IMG/VR virus record: IMGVR_UViG_3300044718_000063
Span: 1 to 28,995 of that record
Direction: 5' to 3' (one strand)
DNA from: a virus
Length of the DNA stretch: 28,995 bases
The translations under genes were made by a program, and so were the position numbers. Within the stretch, counting starts at the first letter, position 1. Each line of letters opens with the position of its first letter. Shown in pieces: positions 1 to 16,690 of the stretch. Below the pieces are notes generated by a model. The model was not told the origin of the DNA. It did no database searches and worked only from the letters and a program-made list of their open reading frames with translations.

Positions 1-752
1 GATTCGTCATAGATTTTCTGAAGACGCGCGTTCAAAGAGTCTTTCAGCTTGTCGTTGGCTGAAATCTCGCTGTTGACGATATTGAGGTGCTCACGCGCCT
101 GGTCCATATTCTTGGGATTGAGGAACGTTCCTTTATTCGCCTGGAGCGTCTCATCGTTCAGCCGCTTCATCGCTTCGGTCATGCCGCCTGCGGCCTGGGC
201 TGCATTGGCGATGCCCTCGCCAACCTTCATAATCATGGGCACTGCCGCATCAATGATCGCAAGAGGGAATGCTGCCGCCATGATTGGGCCAAGGATAGAG
301 CTGCGTGAAATAACCTGGTTGAGTGCGCGATTCTGAAGTCCCAGTGTCTGTTCCAGTAGCCTGCCGGCGACGTTGGCCTTCGTCTGCTCATTGGTCATGC
401 CCATGAACGCGGTGGACGCGCTTCTTACCATGGGTACCCAACTTCCCGACATGACGGCTGCCGACTTCTGGGTAGCTGCAGTAGTGGCCGCCATCGCCGC
501 CATGTTCTCTTTAATGCGCGCGTTCACTTCAGCGATTGTCTTCTGCTCTTCTTCCCATTTGGCTGTGAGGACCGCAACGGCCGCTGCGCCCGTGAGTGTG
601 GCCTTGCTCTGGTTAGCAATAGCCGCAGCTGCCGCTTCAGAAGCAGTAACGACCTTCGATCCCATGGCATCGCCTGAAGACGAGATCTGCTGGAAGCCGG
701 TAACAGCTCCGTTCGAATCAACCGTGACCGTGATTTGTACTGGCGTCGCCAT
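1..752 (-). CDS. Tail tape measure protein, N-terminal part (cut by window edge)
   Basis: This open frame starts at an ATG whose A overlaps the TGA of the upstream gene (TGATG) and runs without a stop to the left edge, giving about 250 residues of an incomplete protein. It begins MATPVQITVTVDSNG, a beta-rich start, followed by long Ala-rich helical stretches with coiled-coil character (AAAAAIANQSKA, KWEEEQKTIAEVNARIKEN) and a hydrophobic segment around SILGPIMAAAFPLAIIDAA. Such composition, and a position directly after the tail-assembly genes, are typical of tape measure proteins, which set tail length and help DNA ejection. The family call rests on composition and context rather than on a catalytic motif. 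The rest of the gene and the baseplate/fibre genes should lie to the left. Confidence 0.8.
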   Translation of the reverse strand, partial: MATPVQITVTVDSNGAVTGFQQISSSGDAMGSKVVTASEAAAAAIANQSKATLTGAAAVAVLTAKWEEEQKTIAEVNARIKENMAAMAATTAATQKSAAVMSGSWVPMVRSASTAFMGMTNEQTKANVAGRLLEQTLGLQNRALNQVISRSSILGPIMAAAFPLAIIDAAVPMIMKVGEGIANAAQAAGGMTEAMKRLNDETLQANKGTFLNPKNMDQAREHLNIVNSEISANDKLKDSLNARLQKIYDE

Positions 753-1150
753 CAGCGTGACTTCCTGAAGTCCATGCCGCATCTGCTCTTGCGGCAGCGC
801 ATGGCGGTGCTGGAATATTGCCTCGTGCCGCATTGCGGGCACGCAGGATGAGAGCGCTCAAATTCCTGGCGGGCGGCCTCCAGCGCACGCAGGCCCTCGG
901 CTTCGTCCGCCATGATCGGGATCTCCACGTTCGAATCGATCAATCCGCGAATCCACAGGATGTAGCTGGCAAAGTCGTAAAAGCCGTCCGCCATGGTGCG
1001 CATAGGCATCACTTTGGCCAGCGTCTCTTCGTCGGCGTCCTGCGCGCGGAGATTATCGAGCTGCCGTTCCACGTCCTCCGCGTCCAGAGATTCCACCATC
1101 AGCTCAAGCGCTGCTTGTCGCACGCCGTCCATGTGTTGCGTCACGATCAC
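752..1150 (-). CDS. Putative tail assembly protein with C-terminal zinc ribbon
   Basis: This 132-residue protein lies directly before the tape measure gene, the slot usually held by tail assembly chaperones. The first ~95 residues are helical and acidic. The last ~30 carry CPQCG and later CRKSRCG, a four-cysteine zinc-ribbon-like end. The start is a GTG preceded by GGAGGGGG, which lies inside the last codons of the upstream gene. It is in the same frame as that gene, separated only by an amber codon and one further codon (TAG TCT GTG), so a readthrough fusion is possible as well as re-initiation. Its stop overlaps the tape measure start by one base. The chaperone role is inferred from position. 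Confidence 0.6.
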   Translation of the reverse strand: MIVTQHMDGVRQAALELMVESLDAEDVERQLDNLRAQDADEETLAKVMPMRTMADGFYDFASYILWIRGLIDSNVEIPIMADEAEGLRALEAARQEFERSHPACPQCGTRQYSSTAMRCRKSRCGMDFRKSR

Positions 1151-1153
1151 AGA

Positions 1154-1942
1154 CTAAGCCCCCTCCACAGCGCCCTCAGGCCGAGCTTCACCCGTGACGA
1201 AAAGCTGCGCCACTGCTTCCGCTTTGTGGTAGCCATCCATCTCGCGCCTGATCTGCTCGACGGATTCCAATGCCTTGCCGGCCACGCCATATCCATCGAC
1301 GGAAAGGATGAGCTGGTCATAGAGTTCCAGCAGCAGGCGGTTTCTGGTTGAGTAGACGGTAGTGCTGCCCTTGCGCAAGCCACCCACGCGGCTGACAGCG
1401 CCGCCGCGCATGTAGCGTCTCTTCTGCTCGATGGTGGGTGGCTTGAAGCGGTGAACCAACCCTTTATATGTGGTGTTGCTATTCGCCGGCGTTGTCTTTG
1501 ACCACATGGCGTCGATCCGCGCTTCCACGGAATCACAGTCGAACGGCTTGTCATCATCAATATCCGATCTGTAGACCTCACTCAGCAGCCCGGAAACCGG
1601 AACAGAGTGGCGCGGCAATATTTTTTTGAAATCTTCCAGTGTGGTCAGCTCGCGCGAATAGCCGACCACTTTTGTCAATGTGGATTCAAGCAGCTCGATG
1701 CCGGTCGTCTGAATATCAGTGGTGTTCGTCTGCGCCACGCCTTCTGTGCGGGAGGATATATAGAACCCGCTGAAATAACTCTCCCAGTCGGGCTGCAGGA
1801 TGCGCCGGAAGTAAAAGGTGTAATCGCGTTTGCCTTCGCGCAGCACGAGCACGCGAGGTTCGTCGAGCATGAGCAGTGCTGGAGGTGTCCAGGTTGCATT
1901 GCTGAGTTCGTTGCCGTTCTCTAAAACGTTTGCCGCTTCCAT
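1154..1942 (-). CDS. Putative tail assembly / minor tail protein
   Basis: This 262-residue protein has an ATG start with AGGAG ten bases upstream. I do not recognise a named family with certainty. The sequence is mixed alpha/beta, with acidic and basic patches, an SDIDDDKPFDCDSVEARID region in the middle and a basic RKGSTTVYSTRNR stretch towards the C-terminus. It is the second gene before the tape measure in a single-direction tail operon, which suggests a tail-assembly chaperone or a related tail component. It ends ...VEGA-TAG, and the frame stays open after the amber codon into the next gene. It is preceded by a 135-base gap that holds three tandem hairpins, so its translation could be controlled separately from the accessory genes upstream. 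Confidence 0.5.
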   Translation of the reverse strand: MEAANVLENGNELSNATWTPPALLMLDEPRVLVLREGKRDYTFYFRRILQPDWESYFSGFYISSRTEGVAQTNTTDIQTTGIELLESTLTKVVGYSRELTTLEDFKKILPRHSVPVSGLLSEVYRSDIDDDKPFDCDSVEARIDAMWSKTTPANSNTTYKGLVHRFKPPTIEQKRRYMRGGAVSRVGGLRKGSTTVYSTRNRLLLELYDQLILSVDGYGVAGKALESVEQIRREMDGYHKAEAVAQLFVTGEARPEGAVEGA

Positions 1943-2002
1943 AAATGGAGTTCTCCTGAAAAATTGACTTTGGATTTTGTGCTACGTGGAACGTTTCTCG
2001 GT

Positions 2003-2075
2003 GAGAGCGGCGAAGCGGTGCCGACTCTCAGAGCAGCGAAGCGGTGCTGCTCTCATCAGCGAAGCGATGCTGATG
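2003..2075 (-). repeat. Three tandem stem-loops with identical loop and different stems
   Basis: Three hairpins follow one another with no spacing. On the + strand: GAGAG-CGGC / GCCG-A-CTCTC (2003-2029), AGAGCAGC / GCTGCTCT (2030-2053, perfect 8 bp) and CATCAGC / GCTGATG (2054-2075, perfect 7 bp). The loops are GAAGCGGT, GAAGCGGT and GAAGCGAT; in the transcript (- strand) they read ACCGCTTC and ATCGCTTC. Stems differ in sequence but keep pairing, while the loops stay almost the same, which is the pattern of selected structure with loop recognition. They start two bases after the stop of the upstream gene and end about 60 bases before the next start. No U-tract follows, so a simple intrinsic terminator is unlikely. 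Confidence 0.75.
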
Positions 2076-2465: not shown

Positions 2466-2672
2466 CTAGAACCGTCCTTTGAGAGCAACCGACGCGTTGG
2501 CTGTCATCACGGCTTCGCGAATCTTGCGAATCGCGGCCGATTGGTCAGCTGATCGCGGAGTGTTCTCCAGGATGGTTTTGGCAAACTGTTTGGCTGCGGC
2601 TCTGATCGCTTCATACTTCGCGACTTGGTCAGCCTCAACCGGGTGATAACTAAAAAGGTCGTCCAGATCCAT
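2466..2672 (-). CDS. acb2: Acb2-family anti-CBASS cyclic-nucleotide sponge
   Basis: This 68-residue protein closely follows the pattern I know for the Acb2 family (the short helical-hairpin proteins that include T4 Vs.4): an aromatic-Tyr-His-Pro start (SYHP, residues 8-11), Gln then a Tyr-containing helix (KYEAIRAAAKQFAKTI), a PRSADQS turn, and a second helix ending in EAVMTANASVAL. Known Acb2 proteins form small oligomers in the cytoplasm that bind cyclic di- and trinucleotide signals, so the CBASS effector is not activated. The start has a strong SD (AAGGAG, 5 bases from ATG). The gene lies 12 bases after the tail-tube gene and would be made late, unlike many early anti-defence genes. The call is from sequence pattern only; cyclic-nucleotide specificity cannot be read. 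Confidence 0.82.
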   Translation of the reverse strand: MDLDDLFSYHPVEADQVAKYEAIRAAAKQFAKTILENTPRSADQSAAIRKIREAVMTANASVALKGRF

Positions 2673-2684
2673 GATTCTCCTTGT

Positions 2685-4097
2685 TTAAGCGCCCACTCCG
2701 TAGGCAGCCTGGTTATTGATCACGATGGCCTGAAACACTTCCTGCGGTCCGGGCTTGAGCACGGCGTTGTCGCCGGCATTCATCTGCCAGATCTGCTCAC
2801 GTCCGCTCTGCCCGATCTGGAATGTGTCCAGCATGGTGTAAGGAAACTGCAGGGTCATCTGTTGCGACGCGCCGGAGTTGGTGATGATCTGTAGTTCCTT
2901 CTGCGTGTCGTTCTCTGAAATCGTGCGCATATCGTCGGCACTGGTCGCTTTCACGTTGACCATCACGTTGGCGCGCTGTTTCAGCACCTTCATGAAGGTT
3001 GCCCAGAAGCCGCTGCCTGGAGCGAGATTGGGGACCATCTCGGCGGTGATATGGACCTGCCAGTCTGTCACGCGTTCCTTGATGCTGCTGAGCGCAGTGG
3101 TTGCCGTAGGCAGCGCCGCGCCCACAACAAAGCCCGTGCCCGGCTCGGTGAAGACGGCAGCAGCGGCGAATGGTCCACCAGCCTGTTTTGTTTCCGTCGC
3201 TGTGATAATCGCGGCATATACGAAAACACCTGTAACTCCGGGCGGCAGCGCCGCTGGCATCGTCGCTTTCGATACGCTGTTCGCCGGGACCAGAATTGAG
3301 ATCTCCTGGCTGCCGATGGTTTCACCAGCAGCGTTCGTATATGTGAATCTATAGAAGGCAGTGCGCTGCGCCTGCGCGCCGAGTACGCTTGTCGAAAGCA
3401 CGATCTGGAAGCGCGGATCGGTGAGGTCCGGCGCGGAAGGCCCAATTTTGATATCGGTGTCCGAACCAAAAAGGAATAGCGGCGCACTCAATGGCGGGAA
3501 CGTGACCGCTCCGTCCACCTTCTTACCGCTGCCCACCATCTTGAACTGCACCTGCAGCGGACCAGACTCTTTTCCGGAGATGACCAGGTCAAGAATCGCC
3601 ATGTCAGGCAGCTGGAAGATCACGTCGTTCGTTTCCTGGCACAGCAACGAGGTCACCGGCATCTGGTTGGTCGCCTGAAGGAACTTCATCGTGTGCACGA
3701 AGGGCCCAGCACCCGTGACGGTCTCATTGCCCAGGATGAAGAAAAGCACCCAGCCGGCGAGGAACGCGTCCAGGTCCATCGTGCCGTCAAAACTGCTCGC
3801 TTCCGCAATGCGCAGCTTCGTCGCAGCCCACTGATGGCCTTTGTTGGCCATTTGCTCATCAGTGTAATGGGACGGAGTATGGACCGCGTTGTAATTGCCG
3901 GCATTGCGCGGCCGCTGCGTGTAGCTCGCTGCAGCGACCGGCGTGAGAAAGTTGTTTTGCTTGTTGGGCGCAATGACCAGGTTGCGGATGTCGAGCACGT
4001 CCTGCGGCTCGAAGGCAAACCGCAGCACAATGCAGCGCAGCATCCAGTTGATAAAACGAATGCCCATATTAAAGAAGCCGTAACTTAACCTGATCAA
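2685..4097 (-). CDS. Major tail (tube) protein with inserted Ig/FN3-like domain
   Basis: This 470-residue protein is the only large structural gene between the head-completion genes and the tail-assembly genes, the expected place of a siphovirus tail tube. No sheath gene accompanies it. Residues ~40-235 and ~340-465 are beta-rich with small residues and fit a tube protein. Residues ~245-335 (FYRFTYTNAAGET, then VTGVFVYAAI) look like an Ig/FN3-type beta sandwich inserted in the middle, as in some decorated tails. The chosen start is TTG, preceded by AAGGAGGTGAGCGC and overlapping the upstream TGA; an ATG lies ten codons further in. The assignment is from context and composition. Confidence 0.65.
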   Translation of the reverse strand: MIRLSYGFFNMGIRFINWMLRCIVLRFAFEPQDVLDIRNLVIAPNKQNNFLTPVAAASYTQRPRNAGNYNAVHTPSHYTDEQMANKGHQWAATKLRIAEASSFDGTMDLDAFLAGWVLFFILGNETVTGAGPFVHTMKFLQATNQMPVTSLLCQETNDVIFQLPDMAILDLVISGKESGPLQVQFKMVGSGKKVDGAVTFPPLSAPLFLFGSDTDIKIGPSAPDLTDPRFQIVLSTSVLGAQAQRTAFYRFTYTNAAGETIGSQEISILVPANSVSKATMPAALPPGVTGVFVYAAIITATETKQAGGPFAAAAVFTEPGTGFVVGAALPTATTALSSIKERVTDWQVHITAEMVPNLAPGSGFWATFMKVLKQRANVMVNVKATSADDMRTISENDTQKELQIITNSGASQQMTLQFPYTMLDTFQIGQSGREQIWQMNAGDNAVLKPGPQEVFQAIVINNQAAYGVGA

Positions 4098-7061: not shown

Positions 7062-7553
7062 TTAAACGCTGGTCTTGAACTGTCCTCTGATCGTCATCGT
7101 GAAGGATGGCGACGTTCCCGTAATCACCGTTTGAATTGTGGAATACCGCGTGGTGTGGTCTACCTTGACAAAGAACACCCCAGTGGTCGTGATCGCCGTG
7201 GACGCGGTATGTATGCCGCAGTTCGCGTTCGCAGGAAACGTCGAAGATCCAGGAGGCGAGTCGCATCCCATGAAGTTCACCGTGAGCGAGGGCGTTGTGC
7301 CAGATACGGCCGTCACGTTGATGATGATTACCCCAACGTCATATCCGCCCACGTCAATCGGCACGATTGCGTTGTTGCTCGTCGTGTACGCGGCCGAAGG
7401 CAGGAACGTGGTTTCATTCAGGAATCCGCCCGTGGCGTCACGGTACGTCTTTATGGACTGCGCCGCAGCCGGCACAGGCGGCAGCACCATGCACACCACC
7501 AGCATCAGGACCAGCAGCACCTTTAGAAATTCAAATCGACTTGTTCTTTTCAC
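7062..7553 (-). CDS. Exported protein in the head operon (possible decoration-like protein)
   Basis: This 163-residue protein starts with GTG after GAGGTGAGAA. The first ~32 residues form a clear Sec signal peptide: basic MKRTSRFEF, hydrophobic LKVLLVLMLVVCMVL, then PPVPAAAQ with a likely cut after AAAQ. The mature part is Thr/Ser-rich and beta-like (VGVIIINVTAVSGTTPSLTVNF), with two cysteines (MGCDSP, ANCGIH) that could form a disulfide after export. It follows the capsid gene directly, the usual slot of a capsid decoration protein, yet a signal peptide would send it out of the cytoplasm. It may be a co-opted secreted protein, a surface-modifying factor, or a decoration protein with a misleading N-terminus. 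Confidence 0.65.
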   Translation of the reverse strand: MKRTSRFEFLKVLLVLMLVVCMVLPPVPAAAQSIKTYRDATGGFLNETTFLPSAAYTTSNNAIVPIDVGGYDVGVIIINVTAVSGTTPSLTVNFMGCDSPPGSSTFPANANCGIHTASTAITTTGVFFVKVDHTTRYSTIQTVITGTSPSFTMTIRGQFKTSV

Positions 7554-7578
7554 TTCTCACCTCGGTTTTTGATTTTGC

Positions 7579-7665
7579 AAACCGTTCCGTTCGCGGGAGC
7601 GGTTTGGAAAATCCCCTGGAGCTGGTTGACTCCAGGGAACCTTCAAACCGGCACCGGCTAACCAG
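7579..7665 (-). other. Cluster of hairpins after the capsid gene
   Basis: Three inverted repeats lie between the capsid gene and the exported-protein gene: AAACCG-TTCC / GGA-GCGGTTT (about 7580-7605, one imperfect pair), CCCTGGA / TCCAGGG (7614-7620 and 7631-7637) and GGCAC / GTGCC (about 7650-7668). None is followed by a U-tract in either direction. They could stabilise or process the abundant capsid message, or partly reduce downstream transcription. Confidence 0.45.
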
Positions 7666-7681: not shown

Positions 7682-10195
7682 TTATGGCACCACCGATTTG
7701 CCAGCTCCACGGAAGTCCAGGATCGCCCCGCCGAAGGGGAACTTGGGCTTGTACTGGATCTGGTCGTTGGTGAACTGCGTGCCCTGCGTCTGCATGTCTG
7801 CCAGGTAGATCTGCGGAGTCGAGATGCCATCAATGTATCCGACTTCGAAGATTGGCACATCAGCAACGTCCACGCCGTAGTACCAGTCGTTCGTATCAGT
7901 CAGCAGTTCATTGACGATGATCCCCGGAGGCGCCTGCTTGCCTGTGCCCGGAGGTCCAAATCGCTGATAGAAAGGATTGGGCTCAAAGATGCCAGAGCCA
8001 GGGTTGTAGTTCTGGCTGTTGTTGGCCTTCCACGCCTGAGCAGCGAGATCCACGGGAACCATGACCCATGAGATCCGACGCGCGAGTCGGTTCCCGGAGT
8101 CCTTCTCCGTCTGTTTCATCTGGATCGCTTCCTGCGCGATCAAGGCGTCGATGCTAAAAGGAGACACTGCCAGGTTGTTGTGTCCGACGTTAAACCAGGC
8201 CACGCCGTCAGGCACATAATTGGGATTATTTATAAAGAAGTTGGTGACGAACGTTTTCAGCGTGTGCCGCCCGGAGCGCGCCAGACGCATGGGAAACTGC
8301 TTGATCTTTCCGAGATCGTCGGCGCGGATCGTTTCCTCCGAGATGGTCAGCAATCCGCCGCGCTTCTGCGGCGCGTAGGTGACCTTCTCGTCTGTGGGTT
8401 TCGTCAACTCCAGATAGGGTGCGCCTTCCGCGACGATTGGGAGATCGGACATATAGCCTTCACGGATACGGCTCTGCGTCCGGTAATCGGTCAATGCGGG
8501 ACCTTCCGTGATGAGCTGATCAAGACCGCTCATTCCCACTTCGCTGTAGTCCTGAATAAGCCGCTTAAACATGGAATCGAGCAAGATGTTCGGAAAATCC
8601 GTTGTGGCCACGGCCTCCGTCACCTTTGTGAATCCTCCCTCGCCATTGCGCCCGAAGCTGAAGTCACGGTCCCCCGTAATAAGTATGTAGGCTTCCTTGG
8701 GGCCGCGAAATGCCTTGATGCCCGCTTCGCCCGCGAGCAGCGTCACTTCTTTCCCAGCTTTCCCCATAACCTCGACGTATGCCTTCTGCCCAGACTCAGT
8801 TACTCCGAGCATCCGGTCCATCGCGAGCTGCGCTTTGTCGCGCGATTCCAGTCCCACTTCTGTGCGGCCTCCGCCGATGCGTCCGATGTTGGAGTAAGCC
8901 GCAAACGCGTCGCGGATCTGCTTGATCTTGTTATCAACCGCAGATTCAGCCACGATCAGCTGTTCGCCTTTGTCGTCAACAAAAGCCTGGCGCACCAACT
9001 GCATTGCCGGCGCGGGAAGTTTGGACGCGACCAATTTGGTTTCCACCAGGTTGGCGCTCTTTATCTTCTTCGCTTCATCCAGCGCGGCGCGGGATTCAGT
9101 GACGAGCGCGGTCATCTCTGTGTGAGTTGTCACCGTCTGCGAGGATTTCTCCGAAGCTTCAGTCACGGCCTCACTTACCGTCAACATGAAATCCGAGAGC
9201 TGCTCGTCTTTCACAGCTGCGAATTCCGTAGTGAGTGCAGTGGCGCGGCCGGCATCGTGCTTCCGGAGCGATTCAATCAACTTCTTAATGCGTTCCTTCA
9301 TCATTGCTCCTGTTTTTCTGGCCGCGCTGTCTGCGCTGCCGCTTTCGCTGGTTTTCACCAGCGATTCTTTTTGCATCTGCGAGATCTCGGCCAGGACCGC
9401 CTTCGATGCCGCATACTGCAGAAACTTTCCTCCCGCGCCAGCTTCTGCGCAGAGGTCAACACTGATCAATTTGCCCAGCCTCTTTGAGACCAGGCAGTCT
9501 TTCCCTTCGACCTTGCCGGCCTCGAACTGGATGTAGCCGAGCATCGAGACGCCGAAAAGGTCCAGCTTGCCGGAAGCTCTGGCTGCATAAAGCTTGGCCT
9601 GCAGCGCCGTTTCGTTTTTCAAAAGATGAACGTCGCCAACGGCTGCTTCACCGACGAGTTTGCCGTTCTCCATCCAGCCTGCGACGCGATTCGCATCTTC
9701 CGCGCCCGTGCCGTTCACCGGATGCATACGCCCAAACTTTGCGCCATTGACGGCGGCAGCGACTTCTGCCACGACCGCAGGCGTGAAGTAATGCGGCACG
9801 TTCTTCTGACCGGCCACAGCACCGTGTGCCCAGCCTGTCTGCATGACTTGCACCGGATAGACCCAATCATCCACGGCAACGCCGGCTTCAGCGGCCATGA
9901 ATATCCCGGACTGAGAGACAGGTACAAAAGCTGTCTCCACTTCCTGCGGATCTCCCAGCGTCGCTTCGCCCTGGTCATCAACCGAGTAAGAAAGCTGGAA
10001 TAGTTTGCCGCCCGGACCACGCGCGATCACGTAGTCCGGGAAAGCTTCAACCAAGATGTAAAGCGGCGAGCCGAACGCGTCGGTGCCGAACTTCTCCTGC
10101 AACTCTTCCTGAAGTTCACACTCCAGATCGTCGAAGGACATGTCTGCCTCCCTGGTGAGCAGGACGCGCGTGCCGTTTTTCTTTTTCGTTTTCAT
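7682..10195 (-). CDS. Prohead protease - scaffold - major capsid fusion
   Basis: One uninterrupted frame encodes 837 residues. Residues ~95-260 look like a prohead serine protease: GRMHPVNG (His158), RVAGWMENGKLVGEA, and FGVSML (Ser217), arranged as in S78/Mu gpI-type proteases. Residues ~265-450 are charged and helical (ERIKKLIESLRKH, AVTEASEKSSQ), as expected of a scaffold. From about 465 to the end the sequence fits a Mu gpT/HK97-type capsid protein (DLPIVAEGAPYLELT, GGLLTISEETIRADDLG). In Mu, protease/scaffold and capsid come from separate genes, so this is a fusion. The ATG has GAAAGGCTGAG upstream. A second start with strong SD lies at residues 298-299. Confidence 0.85.
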   Translation of the reverse strand: MKTKKKNGTRVLLTREADMSFDDLECELQEELQEKFGTDAFGSPLYILVEAFPDYVIARGPGGKLFQLSYSVDDQGEATLGDPQEVETAFVPVSQSGIFMAAEAGVAVDDWVYPVQVMQTGWAHGAVAGQKNVPHYFTPAVVAEVAAAVNGAKFGRMHPVNGTGAEDANRVAGWMENGKLVGEAAVGDVHLLKNETALQAKLYAARASGKLDLFGVSMLGYIQFEAGKVEGKDCLVSKRLGKLISVDLCAEAGAGGKFLQYAASKAVLAEISQMQKESLVKTSESGSADSAARKTGAMMKERIKKLIESLRKHDAGRATALTTEFAAVKDEQLSDFMLTVSEAVTEASEKSSQTVTTHTEMTALVTESRAALDEAKKIKSANLVETKLVASKLPAPAMQLVRQAFVDDKGEQLIVAESAVDNKIKQIRDAFAAYSNIGRIGGGRTEVGLESRDKAQLAMDRMLGVTESGQKAYVEVMGKAGKEVTLLAGEAGIKAFRGPKEAYILITGDRDFSFGRNGEGGFTKVTEAVATTDFPNILLDSMFKRLIQDYSEVGMSGLDQLITEGPALTDYRTQSRIREGYMSDLPIVAEGAPYLELTKPTDEKVTYAPQKRGGLLTISEETIRADDLGKIKQFPMRLARSGRHTLKTFVTNFFINNPNYVPDGVAWFNVGHNNLAVSPFSIDALIAQEAIQMKQTEKDSGNRLARRISWVMVPVDLAAQAWKANNSQNYNPGSGIFEPNPFYQRFGPPGTGKQAPPGIIVNELLTDTNDWYYGVDVADVPIFEVGYIDGISTPQIYLADMQTQGTQFTNDQIQYKPKFPFGGAILDFRGAGKSVVP
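9299..9312 (-). promoter_or_regulatory. Internal ribosome binding site and start codons within the fusion gene
   Basis: On the transcribed strand CAGGAGCA is followed directly by ATG ATG AAG, in the frame of the fusion gene at residues 298-299. AGGAG lies five bases from the second ATG. Initiation here would give a scaffold-capsid protein of about 539 residues lacking the protease, similar in principle to the internal scaffold start in lambda (Nu3) and Mu (Z). The site is seen; its use is inferred. Confidence 0.6.
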
Positions 10196-10229
10196 CTCAG
10201 CCTTTCAGCTTGGTTTTTAAAAAGCTGGG

Positions 10230-10649
10230 TTAAGCGCCTGTTGCCGCGCTGCCAGTACCTTCGCCGCCGCCATTGCCGTTTGCGTTTTGGGTGCCCTTCT
10301 TTTTGTCGTCGGTCTTGTCGTCAACCGGCTTCTGCGCCTTCGCCGGAATCGGGAGGTTGTATTTTTTTCCGTGACGCGTGACCACGCGCAGCGTCTTTCC
10401 GTCTTTGCTGGGCTCGCGCAGCAGGAAGTGAAAGTCCTCGATGTCCATCGCCTGGCTGTAGCTGGTGAGTTCCGGCGTCTTCAAGAGACGGTTTGCTTCA
10501 CGCAAAGCGAGCTGTCTTTGAGTGGTCAAATCATCGGGCGATTCTTCCTGGGCTTCTTTGAAAGCAGACTCGTAAGTCTGCTTCCACATCTTTTCCACCG
10601 CTGCCGGCAATCCTGCGGGTGCGTCTGGAATCTGGATTTTCTCTGCCAT
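10230..10649 (-). CDS. ChaB-like N-terminal domain protein
   Basis: This 139-residue protein has a helical N-terminal region (LPAAVEKMWKQTYESAFKEAQ ... QRQLALREANRLL) that resembles the ChaB fold, where a conserved Leu-Pro starts the domain. The second part is basic and beta-like (VVTRHGKKYNLPIPAKA) and the C-terminus is a low-complexity Asn/Gly/Lys tail (DKTDDKKKGTQNANGNGG). The start has AAGGAGAGCGAC upstream. ChaB-like genes occur beside portal and capsid genes in some phages, but their role is unclear. It lies between the minor head gene and the protease-capsid gene. Confidence 0.55.
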   Translation of the reverse strand: MAEKIQIPDAPAGLPAAVEKMWKQTYESAFKEAQEESPDDLTTQRQLALREANRLLKTPELTSYSQAMDIEDFHFLLREPSKDGKTLRVVTRHGKKYNLPIPAKAQKPVDDKTDDKKKGTQNANGNGGGEGTGSAATGA

Positions 10650-10667
10650 GTCGCTCTCCTTCTGCCG

Positions 10668-11552
10668 CTATGCGGCGCTGACTGAAATTCCCAAACTCTC
10701 CAACAAACCTTTTTGCGACGCCGTGGCCTTCAACACTTCAGGCGCGAAGTATGGCGCAGTCATACAGTGGCAATTGATCGTGTTCCCCGCCGATCCGCTG
10801 GGATCGCGCGGATACATCAACGCTTCGCCTTCCACGATGAAAAACTCTTTCACTCCCACCACCTGGCGGTCCGCAGCGATGTGTCCAGGCCTGGGCACGC
10901 GCGCCAGATTCAGGTGACGCCATTGCTTCTGCAGATCGGGTAGACGGCTGAATGCATCTTCCAGCCGCGCCTGCGCGGCGATGGACTGCACGCGCAGAAG
11001 TTCATTCAGCGCGATTGTGGTCACGCGCCGGCCGAGCGCGTCAAATATCCCGTTGAATTTGTCGCCGCCGATCGCGCGACCCATCTGCGCGATGATGTCC
11101 ATGATCTGCTGGCCGCCAAAGAAGGCGCGCGCGATCGCAGCATTTACTTTGGCCGCCGCATCCACAGATAAGCCAGAGACGAGGTCCGCCGTGTAAGCCT
11201 GGGCAATGGTGAGCGCCGACGTGGATATTTGCCCCAGCGATGGGGTGCCCAAGACAGTGATCGGCTGCACGATCATCTGCGACCCCAGGGTTAATTCCTG
11301 CGCCTCGTAGCTGTCGAGCAGCTTCGTCGCGTCGGCGCTGAATCTTTTAAAGAGCACATCGATCTGGCCCTTAAGCACAGCGAGCTGCGCGGCGCTGAAG
11401 CTGGACGTATTCATTCCCGCCAGGCGCACGACGATTTCTTTGCGCACGGTATCCAGCATCTCCAGCACCTTGCGGCGCGCCTCGAGAGAAAGGTTTGCGG
11501 ACTGCGCGATCATGTCGGCGATCTTGGCCGAGAACTGCTGCTGGAGGCTCAT
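10668..11552 (-). CDS. Minor head / head morphogenesis protein (SPP1 gp7 / Mu F family)
   Basis: This 294-residue protein has a long helical N-terminal region and the typical C-terminal signature of the family: a conserved RPGHIAADRQVV box, then EGEALMYPRDPSG, ending in NTINCHCMTAPY. In related phages this minor capsid protein binds the portal and takes part in head assembly and DNA delivery. It starts with ATG after CAGGAGCTGTGCA and overlaps the portal gene by four bases (ATGA), which fits the standard portal-minor head order of Mu-like phages. Confidence 0.85.
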   Translation of the reverse strand: MSLQQQFSAKIADMIAQSANLSLEARRKVLEMLDTVRKEIVVRLAGMNTSSFSAAQLAVLKGQIDVLFKRFSADATKLLDSYEAQELTLGSQMIVQPITVLGTPSLGQISTSALTIAQAYTADLVSGLSVDAAAKVNAAIARAFFGGQQIMDIIAQMGRAIGGDKFNGIFDALGRRVTTIALNELLRVQSIAAQARLEDAFSRLPDLQKQWRHLNLARVPRPGHIAADRQVVGVKEFFIVEGEALMYPRDPSGSAGNTINCHCMTAPYFAPEVLKATASQKGLLESLGISVSAA

Positions 11553-13033
11553 TGCACAGCTCCTGACGCTGGCTGGGCAGGCGTTTCGAGTTGCTGGAGA
11601 GCCTTACTTAAAACTGTTTGCTCCGGAATCAGATCAGCTTCGTGCGCCGCCTTTTCCTTTTGCGCCTGCTCGAACTCGTCAGCATCAACTTCAATCCCGA
11701 TCTGCGTGAGCACGACGTGGGACGCGCGCGCGGCCGTCTTCCTGGTGATAAAGAAGTTTTCAGCCATGATGGAAACCGAGTTCACCACCGCTGCCATTGT
11801 GGTAGCGGCTTTCTGCATGTCCTTGATCATCAGATCGGGGACTTGCAGCTTCACCGTTGTGTCTACTCCCTCAGCCAGTACTCCGTGGTAAATCGCCTGC
11901 TGCACCACGAATATGAGGATTTGCATCAACGCGCTCTTTAAATGATTCTGGCGGTCTGTGAGCTTCTTTCCTGTCGGCCCTGTCATCTCGTCGGCCGTGG
12001 AGCGGTTACTGTCAACGGGATCGGCGAAGAACCATGCCGGCAGTCCAGCACCGCCCAAACCATAGAGTTTGATGGAGCGCGTGGCTTCCGACATGTCCGC
12101 GCCGGCAAAGCTGGGAGTCTTCGCTTCGATAGTCACATTTTCATTCGTCGTCCACACGCTGCCCTGGCGCGGAGGGTTCTGTGTGACCTTCTTATTCCAT
12201 TTCTCCAGGTCAGGCTCGCTCGCGCCCTTAATGGAGTAGTGCCACACGAAAGCATTCAGGAAGCGCACACGGTCCGCGAAATCAAACATCATCTGGTCGA
12301 ACACGTCGATCCAGTCAGCCAGGCTGAATAATTCAGAGAGTCCGCGGCTGGCGCCCTTGGCTTTGTTGATCGCAAAATAGAAGCAATCGCCTTTAAGCTG
12401 ACCGAAGGTTTCAGAGTTCGGATCTTCGTCGACCCGCACGATCTCCAGACGCTGGCCCTCGGTCTCTGACTGCTTACGCTTCAGTCGCACAGCTACTGGA
12501 ATGAGAATCTGCTGCTGGCCGCTGGACGTTTCGATAGTTCCGTACTCCACGGATTCCAGTAGCAGCGGATCTATATAGCTAAGGCGCACTTTGCCGTTCA
12601 CTGGATTCACCGCGACAGGCAGGCACAACTCGCCGAACGTAGTGAGCTCATCACAGTAGTCTTTCAACGCCTGATCGATATTGTTGACCTGGTCATTCCA
12701 GAATTCCGTGATCACTTCCTGAACGGTCTCGTCAGTCGCGGACGGTTTAAATCCTTCACCAACCACGTAGCTGGTGATGACCTCAACAATGCGCTTGCCA
12801 AAAGGCGTCGTTGATTTCAGGTAGAAGCACACCGCCTGCATCCGCTCATGCATCAGCGGGTTAAGATCGCGGATCGTGTTGGGCGAGGTGATGCGGCGGA
12901 ACTTTGCATCTTCGCCATCAGCGGCGGTCAAACCGAAGAGGAACGGCGTCACGGCTTCAGCCACTTTTTTACCGAGCGCCTTTTTCACCGACGCGGACCA
13001 GGTCTGCACGGTCTTGACTAGCGAGAAGCCCAT
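11549..13033 (-). CDS. Portal protein (Mu gp29-like)
   Basis: This 494-residue protein fits phage portals: KFRRITSPNTIRDLNPLMHERMQ near the N-terminus, a helical stem region (MFDFADRVRFLNAFVWHY), and the typical GLGGAGLPAWFFADPVDSN / MTGPTGKKLTDRQ segment. The portal forms the dodecameric gate at one vertex through which the terminase packs DNA. The ATG is preceded by GCAGGAGGTCTCT and overlaps the terminase gene by 16 bases. Order (large terminase, portal, minor head protein) is that of Mu-like phages. Confidence 0.85.
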   Translation of the reverse strand: MGFSLVKTVQTWSASVKKALGKKVAEAVTPFLFGLTAADGEDAKFRRITSPNTIRDLNPLMHERMQAVCFYLKSTTPFGKRIVEVITSYVVGEGFKPSATDETVQEVITEFWNDQVNNIDQALKDYCDELTTFGELCLPVAVNPVNGKVRLSYIDPLLLESVEYGTIETSSGQQQILIPVAVRLKRKQSETEGQRLEIVRVDEDPNSETFGQLKGDCFYFAINKAKGASRGLSELFSLADWIDVFDQMMFDFADRVRFLNAFVWHYSIKGASEPDLEKWNKKVTQNPPRQGSVWTTNENVTIEAKTPSFAGADMSEATRSIKLYGLGGAGLPAWFFADPVDSNRSTADEMTGPTGKKLTDRQNHLKSALMQILIFVVQQAIYHGVLAEGVDTTVKLQVPDLMIKDMQKAATTMAAVVNSVSIMAENFFITRKTAARASHVVLTQIGIEVDADEFEQAQKEKAAHEADLIPEQTVLSKALQQLETPAQPASGAVQ

Positions 13034-14670
13034 AGAGACCTCCTGCCGCCAGACACTGCCGGCTGCGCGTCTTCATCCTGGCGATCCCGCCCGGAGATCT
13101 CCTGCGCCGTGCGCGTCATGATGCCGCGCTGCTGATTTGTGTACCAGTCGTCTTTAGCAACGATCATTCCCATTGCCGGCTTGAAGCTGCGGCTGCGCGC
13201 CAGGCTAACTGCCATCGTGAGCGCGTCGGCAAGATCGTCGTGCATCTTGCCCAGGAAAAGGAGCTGCGATATCAGCTTCTTTTGCGTGCCGTCCAGGCAG
13301 AATCGAATCGTGCCGTTTTCAACCAGCGGCGAGATCGCCGTGATGCGGCGGAACTTATCGGTGTCCGCCTGCAGTTCTACTACGGGAATATAGCGGCCAC
13401 TCTTGCGGCCTTCTTCGTCCAGATCCTGCTTGAGCGCCTTCTGGTATGCGACGGATTCCACGCCGATGGCGACGGGCTGTTCCTCGTCATAGCGATCAAA
13501 AACAAATTTCTTTTGCTCAGGGAAGCTGAGTTTCTTACCTTCGGCTCGCAGGACCAAAATGAATCCGTCAGGATCGATGCCGACCGTCACGCTGGCAAAG
13601 TCGTCGGCCTTTTCCTTCTTGCTGATCGCGGGATCGATGCCGGTGAGTTTCACCAGCGACATGCCTTCAATCGATGCGCGCGTGTAAGCGTGGCGAATGA
13701 TGTCGCTCTCTTTAAAACTCTGTGTGTCGGAGTTGATCGGACGGTTGCGAAATTCCTGATTGAACTCCGTTGGCCCGATATCCTCTTCCTTCGCCTTCAA
13801 ATCATCCAGTGACCACTTAGCCGGCCAGAGCACCGTCTCGGGAGTGAAATCATCGTCGACCGCCTGGAATAGCCGCTTAAAGAACTTTAGGTATTTGTCA
13901 GGGTCCAGCAGATGAGCCAGCAGAGAATCAAAATGCAGGATCGTGCCAACCACAAAGACCTGGCACGTCTTGCCCAGGTTGAGCACTACGTTTTTAAACC
14001 AGCGCTCAAGCTTCTTGCGCGACTCAGGGTTGTCGACGGTCTCGTCATTTTCCAGATCGTCGCCAATGACCAGGTCCGGGCGATACATCCGCTGGCGAAG
14101 TCCGCGCAGTGACTGTCCAGCGCCGCGCGCCACAACCCGAATTCCCGTTGTGGTGAGAATGTCTTCCTCTCCCCACTTCGCATCATTCACCAGATTGCCG
14201 AAGTCCTCAATCAGCGCGTCGTTACCTTCCAGCTCGACTTTGTTGGCGTTCAGCAGCAGTCGCGCCTGCGGCATCGTTTCGCTCAGGAGCACGATGAATC
14301 GGCGCAGCTTATAGCAGACGCAGTAAAGAACGAAGAAGAGCGATACCACGGTCGACTTCGCATGCTCGCGTGGAGCAGCAACAGCGCCGCGCTTGGTTGT
14401 GAGAAGAATCTGGTACAGCTCCTTGTGAAACTCGGCCGGCTCAACGGCGACCCCCGTGTCCTGGTCAACCATGTAGTGAGCCAGATACTTGCGCACGAAG
14501 CTCTCAATGTCCGAAGCGAGATCCCACGCCGCCTTCAAAACGGTCTGCGGACGGAAGCCCTTCGTGACTCCATCAGTTGCGGTACCGGCCTGAAAGATCG
14601 CGCGCAACTGAGCGCGCGAGTGTTCAAGCCGCTCCCGCTTCGATCTGTTTTGCGTACGCTTCAGCACCAT
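13018..14670 (-). CDS. terL: Terminase large subunit (Mu gp28-like)
   Basis: This 550-residue packaging motor has an ATPase domain with a Walker A-like APREHAKST (residues 99-107) and a Walker B LVIGDDLEND (about 200-209). The C-terminal nuclease domain starts at TGIDPA (Asp346), with GVESVAYQ (Glu405) and the late acidic pair MHDDLADAL (Asp478/479). Together these are the catalytic set of an RNase H-like terminase nuclease. AGGAA lies eight bases before the ATG. The gene overlaps the small terminase gene by 47 bases and the portal by 16. In a transposing phage the enzyme would pack by headful from the inserted genome, including host DNA. Confidence 0.92.
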   Translation of the reverse strand: MVLKRTQNRSKRERLEHSRAQLRAIFQAGTATDGVTKGFRPQTVLKAAWDLASDIESFVRKYLAHYMVDQDTGVAVEPAEFHKELYQILLTTKRGAVAAPREHAKSTVVSLFFVLYCVCYKLRRFIVLLSETMPQARLLLNANKVELEGNDALIEDFGNLVNDAKWGEEDILTTTGIRVVARGAGQSLRGLRQRMYRPDLVIGDDLENDETVDNPESRKKLERWFKNVVLNLGKTCQVFVVGTILHFDSLLAHLLDPDKYLKFFKRLFQAVDDDFTPETVLWPAKWSLDDLKAKEEDIGPTEFNQEFRNRPINSDTQSFKESDIIRHAYTRASIEGMSLVKLTGIDPAISKKEKADDFASVTVGIDPDGFILVLRAEGKKLSFPEQKKFVFDRYDEEQPVAIGVESVAYQKALKQDLDEEGRKSGRYIPVVELQADTDKFRRITAISPLVENGTIRFCLDGTQKKLISQLLFLGKMHDDLADALTMAVSLARSRSFKPAMGMIVAKDDWYTNQQRGIMTRTAQEISGRDRQDEDAQPAVSGGRRSLWASR

Positions 14671-16652: not shown

Positions 16653-16690
16653 TTGTGAAACGTCACAAGGCATGTTGTGACGTTTCACAC
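16653..16690 (-). promoter_or_regulatory. Two tandem palindromic operator-like sites, mirror images of each other
   Basis: TTGTGA-AACG-TCACAA (16653-16668) is a perfect palindrome around a 4-base spacer; TTGTGA-CGTT-TCACAC (16675-16690) is a second. Their centres are 22 bp apart, about two helical turns, and the two sites together form a perfect 15-bp inverted repeat with 6-base spacer. They lie 52-89 bp before the holin gene start, where an activator would stand for a late promoter. No good -35/-10 pair is seen downstream, which fits activator dependence. Confidence 0.65.

Follow-up and report, generated by a model that had tools for sequence, protein, structure and literature searches.

A three-hairpin array in Acidobacteriota phages that resembles a new RNA switch or landing pad controlling a tail-building gene

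Tail assembly chaperones are needed in the right ratio to the tail tube protein, and the classic form of control is frameshifting at the end of the gene, as in phage lambda, where the programmed frameshift of G/GT controls expression of the chaperone. The coat protein hairpin of phage MS2 is a translational operator. The leaders and small RNAs bound by CsrA/RsmA (CsrB and RsmZ among the latter) are made up of repeated hairpins in which the loop motif is constant and the stems vary; they are bound with avidity and often lie at the start site. The ANTAR-target RNAs consist of two tandem hairpins with hexanucleotide loops that carry A1 and G4 (PMC3369931). Here, we describe an array of three small hairpins in Acidobacteriota phages that resembles an RNA switch or landing pad of an undescribed kind and would control a gene for tail building.

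The window, the whole stretch of 28,995 nucleotides that was analysed, comes from an IMG/VR virus record and represents a Mu-like transposable phage with a transposase bearing an IS481-type match, its AAA partner, a terminase, a capsid, and a tail module that runs leftward. In the order of the message, which is the minus strand, the array is preceded by a tail tube gene, the gene for Acb2, and a small gene (likely 2078-2395), and is followed by the genes for p262 and p132 and a further gene running off the window (Table 1). We infer that the first of these genes encodes the major tail tube protein and lies upstream of an accessory slot. The original prediction had set the array between accessory and tail-assembly genes, and this placement is right. 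Elsewhere in the window, a perfect 14-bp inverted repeat with an 8-nt loop is found between genes at about 16654-16689 and is possibly a terminator, while the minus-strand frame at 18675-19328 matches the Dam family of adenine DNA methyltransferases (TIGR00571, E 2e-22, below the cut-off) and has a counterpart of 86% identity in the contig of the relative L137.

Table 1. The array and its flanking features in the window.
Feature	Position	Strand	Description	Basis
Putative major tail tube protein gene	2685-4028	-	likely ATG at 4028	gene order and conservation; no database family
Hairpin 1, first in the message	2054-2075	-	stem CATCAGC / GCTGATG, loop AUCGCUUC at 2061-2068	sequence, fold, compensatory changes in relatives
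Hairpin 2	2030-2053	-	stem AGAGCAGC / GCTGCTCT, loop ACCGCUUC at 2038-2045	sequence, fold, relatives
Hairpin 3, closest to p262	2003-2029	-	GAGAG[U]CGGC / loop ACCGCUUC at 2012-2019 / GCCGCTCTC, single bulged U	sequence, fold, relatives
Spacer between array and p262	1943-2002	-	60 nt, weakly structured, Shine-Dalgarno-like AGGAG at 1953-1957	sequence
p262 start	1933-1942	-	AUGGAAGCGG; GAAGCGG (1933-1939) exactly complements CCGCUUC of loops 2 and 3	
p262, gene downstream of array	1154-1942	-	predicted tail assembly chaperone	gene order; weak fold match
p132, next gene	752-1150	-	helical domain and C-terminal zinc ribbon	alignment, AF2 pLDDT 93

Direct reading of the window at 2003-2075 confirms three back-to-back stem-loops on the message strand, abutting with a linker of 0 nt and each with an 8-nt loop, and the minus-strand fold has a z of -3.71 that was equalled in 0/200 shuffles. 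On the plus strand, the region of hairpin 3 reads GAGAGCGGC-GAAGCGGT-GCCGACTCTC (9 pairs and one bulged base), that of hairpin 2 AGAGCAGC-GAAGCGGT-GCTGCTCT (8 pairs, all perfect), and that of hairpin 1 CATCAGC-GAAGCGAT-GCTGATG (7 pairs, all perfect). Lone 7-bp stems with an 8-nt loop are not rare, as there are 11 in the window against a mean of 2.6 and a maximum of 9 in 200 Markov-shuffled windows, but two adjacent hairpins with similar loops and stems of 7 or more pairs arose in 0/200 of those shuffled windows. Several familiar identities were tried and set aside: an intrinsic terminator, as there is no G+C-rich stem with a U run in 1850-2720; loop-loop kissing, as the loops lack self-complementarity; and mimicry of CRISPR repeats, as sequence differs between the hairpins of an array.

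Relatives were gathered with the tail protein, p262, and the loop patterns as queries, and their protein identity ranges from 100% down to about 30%; most are metagenomic contigs, and the hosts are taken from two Acidobacteriota genomes that hold prophage copies. The array is kept in 14 distinct relatives or prophage copies, Acidobacteriota genomes among them. It is present in the viral contigs L005, L007, L008, L009, L010, L076, L137, L138, L140, L153, L199, and L216, in L196 (an Acidobacteriaceae MAG), and twice in G053, a genome from the same taxonomic order (L207 and L208). Related phages, where the original prediction could have failed, carry the array at the same place (the window, the viral-contig relatives, L196, and L207 agree), with the stems still paired and the loops held. 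There is one array per phage, and in array-bearing phages the motif on a stem of at least 5 bp is confined to it.

Covarying stems had been claimed from a single sequence, from which they are not derivable, but the relatives bear the claim out. Across 11 distinct rows, in an alignment fitted to the structure, which favours pairing (the raw hairpins agree without that step), the covariation score reaches 0.489 where shuffles give 0.143, and both partners have changed at 13 pairs. In the same rows, 95.3% of stem cells are paired, compared with 75.5% in shuffles and 27-49% when the partners are slid. The phages are related by descent, and cross-phage counts such as these are not independent. A covariance model (R1) built from five sequences recovers L153, L010, L076, and L140, all outside the model building, at E-values of 1e-14 to 2e-7 against 0.086 for the best background match, values that are rough in a home-made model. 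With compensatory changes above controls and independent matches above background, the comparative evidence marks the array as a conserved structured RNA.

The loop is far more constant than the stems, reading A-N-Y-R-C-U-U-C on the message strand at a length of 8 nt in 40/40 canonical hairpins. Among 37 distinct hairpins, A1 and CUUC at positions 5-8 are invariant, position 2 is C, T, or A, position 3 is C or T, and position 4 is G in 27 and A in 10; the search pattern within arrays required the loop motif, and every array except L207 and L208 has three such hairpins. In L207 (1552-1578) and in the same element of L208 on the minus strand, the third hairpin keeps its stem GCCTGGAG/CTCCGGGC, and its loop is now ACTGACTGCTG. 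At L208 / L209 1-2000, the array lies in a degraded prophage before a different, 104-aa gene, and p262 and p132 look fused or deleted.

The pairs also tell the strands apart. Stems contain 23 G-U pairs when read in the message strand and 1 in the complement, and since G-U is tolerated in a working RNA, this bias indicates that the message-strand RNA is the selected, functional form. The original prediction had drawn attention to GCGAAGC on the other strand, a sequence known for unusually stable DNA mini-hairpins, and d(GCGAAGC) on the plus strand could in principle serve replication or recombination, for example the exchange of cargo in the adjoining slot. GCGAAGC is indeed present in 3/3 hairpins of the window, and the array borders a variable gene slot. 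It is not conserved among relatives, however, being destroyed by loops such as AUCACUUC, ACCACUUC, AACACUUC, and ACUACUUC and by A-U closing pairs in L153 and L207, and together with the G-U bias this largely refutes a DNA role, which we regard as very improbable.

Outside the phages already named, the array is scarce. In 397 order-level and 396 phylum-level Acidobacteriota genomes (overlapping sets), it was found in G001 and G053 only, and it adjoins phage tail genes in G001 and at 1/2 of the G053 sites. A host-genome repeat element was rejected as an explanation, and most of what the loop pattern matched in genome and viral collections was unrelated palindromes or chance. The more distant p262 relatives L221, L222, and L223 keep a single hairpin with the loop ACCACUUC or ACUACUUC, and the p262 relatives L154, L215, L219, L224, L225, and L227 have no array. 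Catalogued phages gave no DNA match to the window, 50,697 phage records contained no relative of the two proteins that flank the array, and a first scan of genome contigs with the tail protein gave no match. In Rfam 15, no family scored above its gathering score, with only Pyrobac-1 appearing at 23.8 bits (gathering 40, E 3.9), and a search of the open literature found no publication on such an element. The array is an element with strong comparative support that is absent from Rfam 15.

Gene content between the tail tube gene and the array is variable. This cargo slot holds Acb2 and another gene in the window, Acb2 alone in L007, L140, and L199, a LuxR-type helix-turn-helix frame in L137, and little or nothing in L005 and L138. 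The Acb2 frame of the window (2466-2672, minus strand) encodes a hairpin-domain protein of the Acb2/Tad1 family (PF24729, E 3e-14), of the anti-CBASS type, and likewise occupies the variable slot in L007, L140, L199, and L225c. The LuxR-type frames in or near the same slot lie at 5374-5640 in L137 and 3701-3960 in L219, and L008 has a tRNA-like stretch (GGTGGCGCAATGGTAGCGCAGC) at 7500-7590 in the slot directly upstream of the array. Exchange also reaches the head module, which is swapped in L009 and L010, both of which retain the tail module and the array; comparison of window 7682-14670 with L009c, L010c, L221c, and L222c left the capsid-region genes without a match and the tail genes matched. 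The array forms the border of a slot whose cargo includes anti-defence genes such as Acb2.

Against this turnover, the spacing between array and p262 start is nearly constant, at about 47-60 nt in most phages with a canonical array, while the distance to the upstream gene has no such constancy and shifts with the cargo. As the array is kept near p262 across relatives while the upstream genes vary, it travels with p262. Our main reading, to which we give a probability of roughly 0.5, is that the array would be a cis-acting leader RNA of p262 within the late mRNA, setting the dosage of p262, and perhaps of the coupled p132, relative to the abundant tail tube protein. That the array controls p262 post-transcriptionally can be proposed with fair confidence from the comparative sequence evidence. 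It is also conceivable, if unlikely, that the array is a generic block for mRNA stability or processing between the abundant tail tube mRNA and the p262 message, in which the loops matter little. The array does come after the tail tube gene, a further conserved hairpin follows that gene in relatives and in the window, and L221 and L222 have a terminator-like hairpin at that place. Such hairpins require no fixed loop, though, and here the loop is kept over wholly changed stems; the spacing, moreover, is held to p262 and not to the tail tube gene. This further hairpin lies at 2422-2456 in the window (minus strand) and reads CCGCAGGGTAGAG-AAAAAAAA-GCTCTGCCCTGCGG with an A-rich loop in the message, and L005, L007, L008, L009, and L216 have hairpins like it downstream of their tail tube gene.

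The protein that the p262 leader would regulate is probably a tail assembly chaperone. No sequence family was matched by p262, and its AF2 model (pLDDT 76) finds its best solved-structure match in 3fgx at Z 6.8 (4.3 A, 84 aligned); the HK97 tail assembly chaperone 2ob9 follows at Z 4.0 (5.5 A, 86 aligned), and such Z values can be chance. Weak viral fold matches include named tail assembly chaperones such as Mu FS-gp41, all with E > 0.01. The order tail tube, p262, p132, next gene fits a chaperone between tail tube and tape measure, both of these being themselves putative assignments. VIA-align placed no RNA-binding fold near the top of the p262 matches. The p132 protein is possibly RNA-binding, as its C-terminal CxxC...C zinc ribbon is faintly like that of the rRNA-binding ribosomal proteins eL37/eL40 (E 0.1 or worse, Z about 2); Foldseek gave no significant match. 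At the p132 position of L076, a retroviral-type CCHC knuckle pattern replaces the zinc ribbon.

The start of p262 offers one mode of action. AUGGAAGCGG is the start in most array-bearing phages, and codons 2-4 complement the loop in 10/14. GAAGCG stands at the p262 start in 10/14 array-bearing phages and in 0/8 without a full array, a comparison made after the pattern was noticed, and it lies within the first 15 nt of other genes in about 8/333. The codon choice is strict, with Glu2 always GAA (45% genome-wide) and Ala3 always GCG (39%), while the residues after these are hypervariable. The complementarity in 10/14 phages suggests pairing between loop and start. Control would then act on the translation of p262: an exposed loop, chiefly that of hairpin 3, would pair with codons 2-4 (CCGCUUC with GAAGCGG right after the AUG) and hinder 30S initiation, and the remaining loops would be spare copies or contacts for a bound protein. 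In its strictest form, which we put forward tentatively and with some doubt, the array would be a phage leader RNA of a new class, whose three hairpins offer the same 8-nt loop to pair with the chaperone start region, giving dosage control by RNA only.

In favour of pairing, L207 has lost the GAAG start along with the canonical loop of its third hairpin. On the other side, the starts of L140, L199, and L076 are GAAGAU or GAAGAG without a matching change in the loop, and full complementarity between loop and start is absent in these three and in L207. Against pairing, the loops with A4 (10/37 distinct hairpins) cannot pair fully with GAAGCGG. Against pairing alone, one such hairpin persists in L221, L222, and L223 with starts that are not complementary, and the rigidity of A1, C5, and C8 exceeds what pairing would require.

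Alternatively, the loops may dock an RNA-binding protein in contact with two or three hairpins simultaneously, in the way that ANTAR proteins engage two, with p132, p262, or a host factor as candidates, a possibility to be taken seriously at somewhat less than even odds. The docked protein would repress or license translation of p262, a form of autoregulation, or act on the passing RNA polymerase. The invariance of A1 and C5-U6-U7-C8 goes beyond the need of pairing, and the single hairpins of L221, L222, and L223 retain the same loop type where no complementary start exists. The outermost pairs are near-invariant in the 11 rows (C-G 11/11 in hairpin 1; A-U in 10 and G-U in 1 in hairpin 2; G-C 11/11 in hairpin 3), which suggests a fixed joint arrangement, and the resemblance of the p132 zinc ribbon to eL37/eL40 would fit as well. 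However, these ribbon matches are weak, p132 and p262 are also present in the array-free phages L154, L219, L224, and L225, and among the phages compared no phage protein co-occurs only with the array. The original prediction that a protein or RNA reads the loops had the right picture of loops that are read and stems that serve as scaffold, given the place, the covariation, and the conserved loops, but for the reader itself there are candidates only. We consider loop-start pairing and reading by a protein about equally likely as modes of action. Loops read by a protein would make this a compact new RNA-protein pair of the tandem-loop type, and loops that pair with the start region would make it a three-copy RNA switch.

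Several known systems share features with the array. Like lambda G/GT, it concerns expression of a predicted tail assembly chaperone, but it sits where the gene starts, whereas the frameshift acts at the gene's end. The frames of p262 and p132 showed no common relation (in the window a stop is followed by a GTG in the same frame, and several relatives have 4-nt overlaps), and a conserved RNA in front of such a gene is a candidate alternative to frameshift control of a chaperone. As with the MS2 operator, these are phage hairpins near a start codon, for which autoregulation is plausible, but there are three copies with 8-nt loops in the tail operon of a DNA phage. The array shares with CsrA/RsmA targets the repetition of a constant loop on variable stems; CsrA, however, needs GGA in the loop, and the array loops lack it. 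The ANTAR-target RNAs come closest, as tandem small leader hairpins with free stems and few fixed loop residues, A1 included, that are read jointly. The array differs in having three hairpins, almost no linker, a fixed CUUC, and no overlapping intrinsic terminator; its loops are 8 nt in 40/40 instead of hexanucleotides, and where ANTAR targets have A1 and G4, it has A1 in 37/37, G4 in 27, and A4 in 10. PF03861 (ANTAR) had 0 matches in 8 phage records and 2 host genomes, a search in which the control genomes gave no match either. Although loop length and position 4 place it outside the definition of that family, the array would, by analogy, work most like the ANTAR-target RNAs.
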